The position numbers were made by a program, and so were the translations under genes. Of a DNA stretch of 64,000 nucleotides, positions 31,924-59,621 are shown one piece after another. The notes under the pieces are model-generated. The model saw nothing but the letters and a program-made list of their open reading frames with translations, ran no database searches and was not told the DNA's origin. Every line of letters starts with the position of its first letter. The stretch's first letter is position 1. Source of the stretch: Rhizoclosmatium globosum (taxonomy: Eukaryota; Chytridiomycota; Chytridiomycetes; Chytridiales; Chytriomycetaceae); NCBI GenBank assembly GCA_002104985.1, contig MCGO01000091.1, positions 62,001-126,000 on the forward strand. Direction: 5' to 3'.

Positions 31924-32340
31924 ATGTCAGACAAGACAGAACAGCAAGTGCCCAAGAAGAAAAAGAGCTTCCTTGGCCGTCTTTTATCGAGTCGAAGCAA
32001 CAAGAACTTGGCAGCAAAAGAAAAGGCCGAGCGAGAGAGACAGGCATCAAGTGATTCTAATTGATCGACAACTGATCCAACCAACACCACCACCACCAAC
32101 TTGAATGCATCCAATGCATCCACTCAGTCAGCACAGTTAAACCAACAATTAAACACTGACAAACCAATCAATCCAGTTTCAGCACAAGCACTAAAGAAAG
32201 CTGCAGATGAAAAAAAGGCATCTGATGAGAGTTCCGTATCAGCAATTGCACATGGAGTTGCAGCAGGAGCAGCCACTGCGGCCGTTGCAGTTGCCGCAGT
32301 AGCAACAGTCATTTATTTGAAAGCGGTAGTTAGACAATAA
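31924..32340 (+). pseudogene. Paralogue of the preceding tail-anchored gene, interrupted by one in-frame TGA
   Basis: The ATG at 31924 opens a basic N-terminus (MSDKTEQQVPKKKKSFLGRL). After 46 codons a TGA occurs at 32062-32064, and the same frame then stays open to 32340. It encodes an Asn/Thr/Ser-rich linker, PVSAQALKKAADEKK (compare AAIKKAAEEKK upstream) and a C-terminal Ala/Val helix ending TVIYLKAVVRQ. The same layout is kept on both sides of the stop, so this was one gene. It is either a recent nonsense mutation, a read-through site, or a base error. The TGA is followed by TCG, not the classic CTA read-through context. Confidence 0.6.
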
Positions 32341-32391
32341 TATTATAATAAAGAAAGTTGTTACAAATCGTGGGATTCTGGATTGGATTTG

Positions 32392-55230: not shown

Positions 55231-56821
55231 ATGAGATCCACACCTGAATACGATGTGATTGTGATTGGCGCCGGAATGAGTGGCATATCAGCTGCATCTG
55301 AATTGGACAAGAAGGGGTTGCGGGTGCTGGTTCTTGAAGCGAGGGACCGAATCGGAGGCAGAATCAATACAATCTACCCGTTTGGACCGGACAATGTGGC
55401 AGTTGAACTCGGAGCTCAGTTGAGTGTATTCGCAATGAGAATTAACACTTGGTTGGCTTACTCAGTGTTGGAGTAATAGGTGGATTCACGGAACCGAGGC
55501 CAACTTGAACCCTCTTCTCCACCTTATTGACAATGTGTCTCTTCCCTCTGACTGGGAACACACGAAAATGTTCAACAAACACGGCGCTTTAGTGGACCCA
55601 CAAGTTGCGTCAAAGTGTCTTGAAGCCGTGGAACAATTAGGTGAGCGATGTGTTGAGGCTTACAAAAAGGGCGAAAGAGGTAGCTTCGCTGCTTTCATGG
55701 CACGTGATGTTGAATGGAGTGGAAAATGCATCTTTGGTACGTGTCCACCTGGAAAGGTTCTTGTCTGTGCGAATTGTGTGGAGAAGGTGTTTGTTGGACG
55801 GGAATTTGAGAATGTTGAGGGTGCTGAGTTGGATGAGCTTAGTATTGGAGAGAAGGCTGGGGAGGGCAACTTTGAAGGCGATAATGCCATTCCGGTGAAG
55901 GGATATCGATGGTTGCTAGAGAAACTGATTCGTGAAATGCACTCCACTGAATTCCGATTTGGATGCGAGGTTCAATCTATCGACTACTCCGGGGAATTTG
56001 TCACAATCTTTACTTCAAGAGGAATCCATCACGCTAAAACAATCGTCTCGACGATTCCACTTGGTGTCATGAAGTCTCCCCACGCTCCCAAGTTTACTCC
56101 ACCACTCCCACCCGCCTACCAACACTCCATCAAAACCCTTGGATTCGGCCTCCTCGATAAAACTATCCTCACTTTCGAGAAATCCTTCTGGCCTCCATCC
56201 ACCCACGGATTCCAATCCCACCTCGACTTATCTCCTCATGGAGGACCCTCTGACGCGTTCATCCTCCTCTTTAATCTCAAAGCCGGTATTCAATACAACG
56301 GCGACCCAAACATCATAGTCGCATACTACGCAGCCAACGTAGCAGACTGGCTCGAAACCCTTCCCGACGAAAAAGTCGTCCCCATCTTTCTCAACCACCT
56401 CACACATCTCTTTGGCGCACCCACCCCTCTTTTATCGCATACAGTCACGCGATGGAGAAACGAAAAGTATTCTTGTGGGAGTTATAGCTATTTGAGTAAA
56501 GGGAGCGAGTTTTCGGATCAGGCGGTTTGGACGCGGCCGGTTGGAGGTGGGAAGGTTGTGTTTGCGGGGGAGCATACTATTGAGACGCATTTTGCGACTG
56601 TTCATGGAGCGCTTTTGAGTGGACGGAGGGCTGCGGAACAGGTTTTGAAGAAGGTTGAAGGGGTTGATGAGGATTTTGAGAAGAAGGAGAAGGGCTTCGG
56701 GGAGGGAAGTGAGGAGGAGGAGGAAGAGGAGGAAGAAGATCTTGTGAAAGGGAATTGGAAGGGATTTGTTGTGATGGGCGTTGTAGTGTTGATTGCTCTT
56801 GTGGTGTACATGACTTTCTAA
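55231..56821 (+). CDS. Flavin amine oxidase (polyamine/monoamine-oxidase type), tail-anchored
   Basis: FAD enzyme oxidising amines or polyamines to aldehydes with H2O2. The N-terminal dinucleotide fold is [17 protein letters not shown], with [14 protein letters not shown] following. A 61-nt intron (about 55418-55478) splits VELGAQ from WIHGTEANL. Later blocks are [23 protein letters not shown] and the C-terminal FAD motif [20 protein letters not shown]. After the domain come an acidic run (eight Glu near 56715-56740) and one C-terminal helix ([18 protein letters not shown]), so it is anchored by its tail as in animal MAOs at the mitochondrial outer membrane. The WIHG motif favours the polyamine-oxidase branch. 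Confidence 0.85.
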
Positions 56822-57128: not shown

Positions 57129-58307
<1,179 letters not shown>

Positions 58308-58363
58308 GCTTCCTTCCTGCCTGTGAAGTCCTTTTATCTTTCTTCTTATCTTTCTCTCTCTTT

Positions 58364-58449
58364 GCGCAAACGGGTGCCCTTTCATATTGGCTGAGATTAT
58401 ACCGTCATTATTAACCCGATCATGGTAATACATGCGAGGGGATTTGCGT
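58364..58449 (+). promoter_or_regulatory. TPP riboswitch aptamer in the THI4 3' UTR
   Basis: All parts of the TPP aptamer are present in order. P1 pairs GCGCAAA (58364-58370) with TTTGCGT (58443-58449). P2 starts CGGGTGCC and closes at TATACCG, with a G:A and U:U step as in E. coli thiM. P3 follows. The pyrimidine-sensor loop GCTGAGA is at 58390-58396. P4 pairs CCC (58415-58417) with GGGG, and P5 pairs CATG with CATG around GTAATA. The pyrophosphate-binding GCGAGGGGA is at 58434-58442. Strand and position put it downstream of THI4 and antisense to the convergent SWEET gene. P3 is short. The GTAATA in P5 could serve as a 5' splice site. Confidence 0.93.
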
Positions 58450-58453
58450 CAAA

Positions 58454-58459
58454 AATAAA
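58454..58459 (+). terminator. Candidate poly(A) signal directly after the TPP aptamer
   Basis: AATAAA starts 5 nt past the end of P1, close enough for aptamer folding to affect its use. Further AATAAA-like sites occur near 58528-58542, which would allow longer transcripts. Function inferred from sequence only. Confidence 0.45.
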
Positions 58460-58547
58460 CCATTTGATTTAAAAGTCAACTTCTTACTTCTTGTACTGCA
58501 TTATTCGATATGTACCCACAACAAAAAAATAAACGAATAAATTAAAC

Positions 58548-59621
58548 TCAATTGGATTTCATCAGCTCCATGTTCTCTGCGGCGATTCCCTCCTCCAACT
58601 CTGGAACTAATGTCTCCGGTGTGGATCTATCGGGTGATCCCAAATCACGACGTTTCTTGTATTTGAGCAAAAGGAAGAGCTGAATCAATCCGAAAATCAG
58701 GCCGACACCGTTGGGGGCGGCAATGAACCCTGCAAGATATCCAAGTGAGTCATGGTGGGAATCAGAGTAATCGAAAGGACTTACAGTTCTGTAAAGCGAA
58801 CCCATAAGCAGTCCACAAAATGCAGTTGGTTATACTGGGTGAAAAAGAGTTGTGAGTGTTTATACGTGGCAGTTCCGAGATGATGGGCTCACGTTGCAAA
58901 CGTCAACAAGGAATCCAAAGTACTAGCATCCTTGTTCTTAATGACAGTATAAAAGACCATCAAAGGACTACCAAAGAAGATGACTAATACCAAATAGAAT
59001 AAATACCAAAGATAAGCATAACAACAAGCATAACAAGGACCAACTCAACTGAGAAACAGATTCGCCAGTGAGCCCATAATAAGATCGCCCGTCTCATGAG
59101 CCACATCAGTAATGTACACAAAGCCGACACTTGTGACAAGCAGGGCCGTCAGTCCAACAAGTAGTCTGATTGCAGTTGTCCTTGTCTTTGCGGGAGTGAT
59201 TGGAAGCAGCATCAGAGTGAAGTAGAGCGAGGCAATGTATCCAATTGTGTTTGGCACAAAGACAAAGTAGTCTTTGAGGTACCAGGCTGGATAAGGTTTA
59301 CTTGGGTGTTAGAGGTAGTACCGTAGTAGTGACTAGGTAGGAGGGTTACTCACAGTACACCACCCATCCAAGTGTATTTACTACTTGAAGTGCGTATGGA
59401 AGAGTGTTCACAGCGCCCGTTGTTCCTGCTTCAAGACATCGGTTGACTGTTGGAAGCGGTGACATACACAAGAAGACAGCTGACATTCCTCCCCTTTTGC
59501 ATCCAGTGTCAGAGTAACATTATCAAACGATCACGGATAACGCTTACAAAGTAGGTACAATGTACTTGAGGATCGTGGTGCATGCTGCTGATGCTCCGGC
59601 GCATGTTTCCGCTACTCCCAT
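58548..59621 (-). CDS. SWEET-family sugar transporter, copy 1
   Basis: SWEETs are seven-helix facilitators with two MtN3 triple-helix repeats. Start MGVAETCAGASAACTTILKY at 59621. Then PLPTVNRCLEAGTTGAVNTL, ALQVVNTLGWVVYC, and the exon at 59045-59257 (PNTIGYIASLYFTLMLLP and a second-repeat helix). The last exon, FIAAPNGVGLIFGLIQLFLL, ends in a charged tail. The order of the exons matches the next gene. Several short introns. It is convergent with THI4, its 3' end lying about 100 nt from the riboswitch. Confidence 0.8.

Follow-up and report, generated by a model that had tools for sequence, protein, structure and literature searches.

TPP aptamers beside AATAAA in the 3' UTRs of thiamine genes of the chytrid Rhizoclosmatium globosum

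The cited parts of two surveys place the TPP riboswitches of fungi in 5' UTRs and introns (PMC5882874, PMC11683625). Fungal examples of the splicing type are NMT1, THI4 and NCU01977 of Neurospora, and types I-IV have been distinguished (Mukherjee 2018). Dur31, a thiamin transporter of Candida that belongs to the SSF superfamily, is also described with a TPP riboswitch (PMC5997356). Among the riboswitch-regulated biosynthesis genes of fungi, the portion of PMC5882874 cited here names only NMT1 and THI4. It mentions HMP kinase for some Pythium, an oomycete, and gives Postia eIF5B as a fungal case in a 3' UTR, while its conclusions mention 3' UTRs in general.

Outside the fungi, diatoms, Micromonas and Aureococcus are described as having TPP aptamers in 3' UTRs (PMC9544697, PMC4260697). 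The riboswitch of plant THIC lies in the 3' UTR and acts through alternative splicing (PMC10226581); plants and green algae carry an AGGG acceptor in the P2 strand (PMC9544697). P1 of the diatom PtTHIC aptamer overlaps a predicted poly(A) signal (AACAAA). A polyadenylation hypothesis is stated for it, and by 3'RACE thiamine caused no substantive change (PMC9544697). The same source treats the eukaryotic riboswitches characterised up to 2022 as acting via alternative splicing, and assigns to CTGAGA the binding of the pyrimidine moiety of TPP. Polyadenylation riboswitches have been engineered from a guanine or a tetracycline aptamer with AAUAAA in P1 (Sporing 2020, via PMC10353319). An engineered 3'-UTR switch with AAUAAA in P1 functions in HeLa cells (PMC10353319).

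For chytrids, no title or abstract among the listed matches of our keyword searches concerns TPP riboswitches, an earlier mention being possible, and the word 'chytrid' is absent from the main text of PMC5882874. The aptamers of Rhizoclosmatium globosum that we describe belong to a known family, found here in a new location.

The aptamer downstream of THI4

We analysed a stretch of R. globosum DNA of 64,000 nucleotides, called the window below. A sequence-only reading had placed a TPP aptamer in the 3' UTR of THI4 and tied it to AATAAA. This claim is borne out here, and in all 18 pattern matches of the genome, which fall into seven families (next section). The coordinates, the 7-bp P1 and the distance to the hexamer that it gave are correct to the base. 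The features of the locus are as follows.

57129..58307, + strand: THI4 (thiamine thiazole synthase) gene, four exons, spliced by hand to give 326 aa
57129-57255, 57307-57374, 57460-57589 and 57652-58307, + strand: THI4 exons (hand splicing)
58305-58307, + strand: THI4 stop codon TGA (direct sequence reading)
58329..58363, + strand: pyrimidine-rich stretch between the THI4 stop and the aptamer, best 25 nt 96% C+T
58364..58370, + strand: P1, 5' strand (sequence, Rfam alignment)
58371..58373 with 58402-58404, + strand: P2, CGG with CCG (Rfam alignment, covariation alignment)
58376..58391, + strand: P3, short, GCC 58376-58378 with GGC 58389-58391 (Rfam alignment, covariation alignment)
58391..58396, + strand: CTGAGA motif (direct sequence reading)
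58415-58417 with 58438-58440, + strand: P4 (Rfam alignment, covariation alignment)
58421-58424 with 58431-58434, + strand: P5, loop GTAATA at 58425-58430 (Rfam alignment, covariation alignment)
58434..58442, + strand: GCGAGGGGA, pyrophosphate-binding side and 3' strand of P4 (sequence, Rfam alignment)
58443..58449, + strand: P1, 3' strand (sequence, Rfam alignment)
58454..58459, + strand: AATAAA next to P1 (first base 5 nt after it, 4-nt gap), presumed to be the proximal poly(A) signal
58528..58533, + strand: second AATAAA, candidate distal poly(A) signal, offset +85
58536..58541, + strand: third AATAAA, candidate distal poly(A) signal, offset +93
58548..58805, - strand: ORF on the opposite strand, from the ORF list only and without a gene call

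The THI4 product scores 337.6 bits in a profile search with Pfam Thi4, and R. globosum protein P0001 is 100% identical to the product of the gene model along its full length. Between the stop codon and P1 lie 56 nt, the final 35 of which are rich in pyrimidine. P1 consists of 7 pairs, the outermost being G-U.

RF00059 matches positions 58360-58460 of the + strand with 52.4 bits and covers model positions 1-105 of 105 (E 2.6e-9 in an 801-base scan, 2.1e-7 in a scan of the whole window). The gathering score of RF00059 is 54.3. Because the window copy lies 1.9 bits lower, a default Rfam scan at the gathering score reports no RF00059 match in the window, and the match appears with an E-value threshold. 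Read literally, the check with RF00059 thus failed by 1.9 bits. We do not take the score as a refutation: the cut-off is exceeded by another allele of this gene, C102, with 57.3, and by all three copies of THI5, with 62.3, and the core motifs are present. The ligand-binding motifs of RF00059 and its P1-P5 layout are found in the window copy, over Rfam alignment positions 1-105 and at the invariant columns.

Judged by fold energy alone, the aptamer does not stand out from its shuffled versions (z -0.29), 69 of 200 of which fold equally well. The covariation alignment consists of 7 distinct rows from four families, the long-P3 families being left out. Its cells are paired to 87.6%, which 0 of 500 shuffles match, and its covariation score is reached by 0 of 500 shuffles, a control that related sequences without structure tend to exceed too. 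Both partners differ in six pairs, four of them in P4/P5 and one each in P1 and P3, a count that 30 of 500 shuffles reach; the 8 further pair types are reached by 490 of 500. P1 is only 65.6% paired across the seven rows because its register differs between families.

The next gene-like ORF downstream (58548-58805), probably the last exon of a convergent neighbour, lies on the minus strand. Hence the THI4 aptamer is not in the leader of this ORF, and we reject a 5'-leader reading of it. We consider its identity as a TPP aptamer, and its placement in the 3' UTR after THI4, near certain. The 3'-UTR status is assigned by position after the stop codon, and the element is predicted from its sequence to be a TPP riboswitch, one of a genome-wide set.

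Other features of the window were noted in passing. Directly upstream of THI4 (55231-56821, + strand) lies what appears by eye, from the ORF list, to be a gene for an FAD-dependent amine-oxidase-like protein with a hydrophobic C-terminal tail; the Thi4 model weakly matches its Rossmann start. At 32241-32383 on the minus strand there is a match to the Aspergillus sRNA family Afu_254, below threshold with 42.5 bits against a cut-off of 60.

Eighteen aptamers in seven families

We searched the species' own genome (56.9 Mb, 420 contigs) with a pattern of CTGAGA, which in TPP aptamers binds the pyrimidine part of the ligand, followed by the P5 loop and GCG. The same pattern read backwards served as the control. 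The forward pattern occurs at 18 places, the backward pattern at 1. A first Rfam-based search of the genome had yielded 11 aptamers, and scans of fetched loci added five with a long P3. The final two copies, at a symporter-like gene, were found by the pattern; RF00059 gives them only 39.7-39.8 bits (E 4e-5), the lowest scores of the set. CTGAGA is present in all 11 copies first found by Rfam, and in all 18 by construction. The number 18 counts pattern matches, and an aptamer that deviates from the pattern would escape unless it lay in a fetched locus.

The 18 aptamers fall into seven families: THI4 (3), THI5 (3), THI6A (2), THI6B (3), THI20 (3), an MFS transporter (2) and the symporter-like gene (2). 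Family identities come from Pfam (Thi4; NMT1; TMP-TENI with HK; Phos_pyr_kin with TENA; MFS_1/Sugar_tr). On exon pieces, on the symporter-like protein pieced together and on its best relative P0121, Pfam finds no family. Precomputed annotation assigns SSF (PF00474) to 20 of the 24 relatives found for this protein. Since the cited portion of PMC5882874 names only NMT1 and THI4 for fungi, THI6 and THI20 would be additions.

We read the surroundings of all 18 copies. A stop codon precedes the aptamer in every one. The three THI20 aptamers also sit 5' of THI6B, and because THI6B starts 78 nt after the hexamer (in L017), a 5'-leader reading is formally possible for this family. Contrary to such a reading, THI20 keeps the order of stop codon, pyrimidine stretch, aptamer and AATAAA that every other family shows. 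In three loci (L017:6866-7029 on the minus strand, L018 and L019) THI20 and THI6B lie in tandem, and read-through of THI20 could also disturb THI6B. The MFS transporter (L013:8448-8609, +) and THI6A (L013:4889-4987, -) adjoin each other in divergent orientation, and both have an aptamer of their own in the 3' UTR. This pair is a second small thiamine cluster.

P3 is short in four families and long in three. The long P3 carries an insert of about 75-96 nt, pyrimidine- or T-rich, in the aptamers of L013, L017 and L039 (three families), and the copies with this insert are those that the first Rfam-based search missed.

Each aptamer locus is present in two or three near-identical copies (e.g. C102/C262/C412), and the assembly seems to hold several haplotypes or to be that of a recent polyploid. 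The alleles diverge sharply downstream of THI6B (L017 after 4927, minus strand, against L018 and L019). About 30 nt after the THI6B aptamer an open frame begins in L017 that a stop breaks in L018 and L019. The gene for thiamine pyrophosphokinase (TPK) shows no TPP aptamer match in its 3.2-kb locus (L025), and a search of a viral contig collection for relatives of THI4 gave no match.

Hexamer, spacer and candidate modes of action

The layout is constant in all 18 copies: the stop codon, 45-87 nt up to P2 with a pyrimidine-rich stretch, the aptamer, and AATAAA. Counted from the end of the GGA box, the first AATAAA starts after 0 nt in THI6B, 4 in THI6A, 8 in THI20, 11 in THI4, THI5 and the MFS transporter, and 21 in the symporter-like gene. 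The offset is identical across the alleles of each family, and it stays within 0-11 nt in six families, with 21 in the seventh. P1 sequences differ between families. By hand alignment, THI20 has a P1 formed by ATTGAGCAAAA and TTTTGCTCAAT, and the three bases that end it also open AATAAA. For THI6B, a drawing that allows one bulge places the hexamer within the 3' strand of P1, and in THI6A the two overlap by 1 nt. In THI5, THI4, the MFS transporter and the symporter-like gene the hexamer lies outside P1, 3-10 nt downstream (4 in THI4). The seven families may share descent, and their hexamer placements are then not independent instances.

As background we took 81 other ORF ends, long stop-to-stop frames from 220 kb with 3 thiamine ends dropped; some of them may fall inside introns. 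There AATAAA starts in 0.9% of random 12-nt and 1.5% of 22-nt stretches, and 11 of the 81 ends have one in the first 200 nt. Because AATAAA is uncommon at other ORF ends, its use as a poly(A) signal here is an assumption.

The juxtaposition could also accompany an aptamer that acts within the mature 3' UTR. Bound TPP would then alter decay, export or translation of the message, and AATAAA would merely follow. A short 3' UTR ending past the aptamer would keep the aptamer in every mature message, the hexamer lies outside P1 in four of the seven families, and in most computed folds its pairing changes little. By itself, however, this explanation accounts neither for a hexamer spacing of 0-21 nt in seven families with differing P1 nor for the overlap of the hexamer with P1 in three of them. 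We regard it as unlikely.

From CTGAGA to the box, 1 of 365 allele columns is variable, a figure biased low, since it was by this core that the copies were recognised. The segment between the box and the end of the hexamer lay outside the search pattern. There 0 of 108 columns vary, whereas the 30 nt that follow have 22 variable columns out of 214 (Fisher p 1e-4). Further downstream 100 of 1149 columns vary, and the 200 nt past the hexamer vary by 9-10%. The counts are 24 of 378 for the spacer, 14 of 284 for the P3 loop, 3 of 84 for the 5' side of P1, and 41 of 1405 for the last 200 coding bases. Compared with the coding region with THI4 set aside, the stretch from box through hexamer does not differ significantly (0 of 91 against 40 of 1205, p 0.11). 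The three copies of THI4 are nearly invariant throughout and contribute nothing to these comparisons.

The aptamers may bind TPP, or once have bound it, with regulation lost, as was concluded for diatoms. The diatom 3'-UTR aptamers, with their A-rich P1, are described as unresponsive (PMC9544697). The RF00059 cut-off is reached by 5 of our 18 copies and missed by 13, the symporter-like ones lying far below it. Loss sits badly with a core that hardly varies while the 200 nt past the hexamer vary by 9-10%, even allowing for the bias of the core figure, and with an aptamer that seven genes of one pathway have kept. We find it quite improbable.

The best 25 nt of the spacer are 80-96% C+T in all 18 copies. 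At other ORF ends (first 90 nt), the best 25 nt reach at least 80% in 11 of 81 cases, 84% in 6 and 92% in 2. In a plant-like mode, TPP would free or hide a 3'-UTR splice site, the proximal poly(A) signal would be removed or kept, and the long message would be unstable. Plant THIC offers a precedent (PMC10226581), and the pyrimidine-rich stretch ahead of P1 is found in 18 of 18 copies. In addition, an AG follows the stretch, at or within P1, in MFS, THI20 and the symporter-like gene, whose spacer also holds GT-containing candidates, one of which fits GTRNG.

Our scan for GTRNG donors and YAG acceptors, with one allele for each of the seven families, speaks against this mode: it found no donor/acceptor pair common to the seven families and no common GTRNG donor. 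The THI20 copy that was scanned has no GT from the stop to P2 (another allele has one). Between the pyrimidine stretch and P2 there is no AG in THI4, THI5, THI6A or THI6B, and the P2 strand reads CGGG, without the plant-type AGGG acceptor. The sequence-only reading had proposed two donors, and neither holds as a general mechanism, since they are not common to the families. GTGAAG near 58323 departs from GTRNG and is absent from the other families, the nearest being a GTGAAT in 1 of the 2 MFS alleles. GTAATA of the P5 loop is GATAATG in both THI6A alleles and in 2 of the 3 THI6B alleles, and its GT is lost in 4 of the 18 copies. Plant-like splicing is improbable.

We compared the pairing of the hexamer in computed folds with the core enforced and without the core, family by family. 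In THI20, the first three bases of the hexamer show a pairing of 0.33-0.39 without the core and of 0.83-0.98 once it forms. In MFS, the pairing of all six bases rises by 0.08 to 0.35. In THI6B pairing is confined to the last two bases, roughly equally without the core, and the change is slight and uneven; in THI5 it is mixed. The hexamer of THI4 stays 80-96% unpaired in both folds, a little more so when the core is formed, and in the symporter-like gene the pairing of the hexamer is unchanged. The earlier proposal that TPP would mask the proximal poly(A) signal is tentatively favoured as a general idea; the THI4 fold for which it was made shows no masking. Across families, the models support masking by base pairing in one to three of the seven: it is clear in THI20 and weak in two. 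The remaining families would need crowding by the closed P1.

The THI6A hexamer pairs with a downstream stem whether or not the core is enforced, in a fold that lacks P1. Near 4830-4895 of L013 (minus strand), the 3' strand of P1 and the hexamer pair with a downstream stretch, possibly an alternative fold that would compete with P1. By breaking such a stem, TPP could expose the poly(A) signal in some genes, so that the sign of the response would differ by gene. The THI6A stem is what suggests this, in one family of seven. Its partner lies about 40 nt downstream and would often be gone after cleavage, and for synthesis genes negative feedback is expected. We think exposure highly improbable.

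We favour the poly(A) signal itself as the likely expression platform, because AATAAA is near the aptamer in all seven families, because in 11 of the 18 copies no second AATAAA occurs within 400 nt of the box, and because the scan of one allele per family showed no splice-like sites in common. The invariance from the box through the hexamer, the rise in pairing in THI20 and MFS and the engineered switch of HeLa cells also speak for it; the unresponsive diatom PtTHIC, whose P1 overlaps a predicted poly(A) site, warns that an anatomy of this kind can mislead. When TPP is scarce, P1 would be open, the 3'-end machinery would read AAUAAA, and a stable message would result. When TPP is bound, the aptamer would close P1, whose 3' strand overlaps or adjoins AAUAAA, and the closed stem would hide or crowd the signal. 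With the signal blocked, the transcript would run to a distant signal or stay without polyadenylation and then be lost. To this poly(A) gating, in which TPP closes P1 and hinders the signal, we assign a probability of about 0.5. What we infer is that TPP binds, that this hexamer is the signal in use, that expression falls with TPP, and that the signal is blocked. The wider proposal is more tentative, at slightly below even odds: a natural polyadenylation riboswitch regulon, covering the thiamine pathway of a chytrid and two transporters, with TPP feedback acting directly on the poly(A) signal and without splicing.

Comparison with known systems

If the gating model is true, vitamin B1 would switch off the genes for its own synthesis and transport by blocking completion of their messages. 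TPP riboswitches at the 3' end would gain one more major lineage. That a bound metabolite might control a poly(A) signal has been proposed for diatoms, where the idea failed its test (cited part of PMC9544697), and such control has been built artificially (cited part of PMC10353319). With seven genes that share aptamer and AATAAA in a free-living fungus, the question can be tested by ordinary 3'-end sequencing.

With RF00059 the window copy shares a full-length match, the CTGAGA and GCG..GGGA motifs, P1-P5 and covariation. It differs in lying under the gathering score, and its relatives differ in P3, as set out above.

The fungal splicing type shares its ligand class with our set, and some of its genes as well: THI4, THI5/NMT1 and an SSF-superfamily transporter like Dur31 (cited parts of PMC5882874, PMC5997356). 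Its types I-IV lie in 5' UTRs and introns, whereas all 18 R. globosum aptamers follow a stop codon. It works through alternative 5' splice sites, whereas the seven families, one allele each, have no GTRNG donor in common.

Plant THIC resembles our set in carrying a 3'-UTR aptamer on a thiamine gene, near 3'-end processing. In plants, however, an alternative splice uses an AG in P2, whereas in R. globosum the scan of one allele per family found no common splice sites, and AATAAA adjoins P1. The sequence-only reading had spoken of an independent arrival at the plant arrangement, and this is half right. A 3'-UTR aptamer does sit on a thiamine gene. Yet the splice-acceptor anatomy of plants is missing, and 3'-UTR TPP aptamers are described beyond plants, in diatoms, Micromonas and Aureococcus (PMC9544697, PMC4260697) and in Postia eIF5B (PMC5882874).

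Diatom PtTHIC is similar in its 3'-UTR position, its A-rich P1, the predicted poly(A) signal that P1 overlaps, and the polyadenylation hypothesis put forward for it. It belongs to another lineage and other genes and is unresponsive to thiamine, whereas in R. globosum the hexamer is the canonical AATAAA and the layout recurs in seven families.

The mode of action is most probably closest to that of the engineered polyadenylation switch, judged by analogy. The engineered switch has AAUAAA in the basal stem of a 3'-UTR aptamer; by our hand alignment the natural hexamer overlaps P1 in THI6B, THI20 and THI6A and lies 3-10 nt away in the other four families, THI4 included. The engineered switch is man-made and holds both the signal and its complement in the stem, whereas the natural hexamer is part-paired (THI20, THI6B) or adjoins the stem. 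The best reading, by this likeness, would make the R. globosum aptamers the natural counterpart of engineered polyadenylation switches, and relatives of plant THIC that do without splicing.
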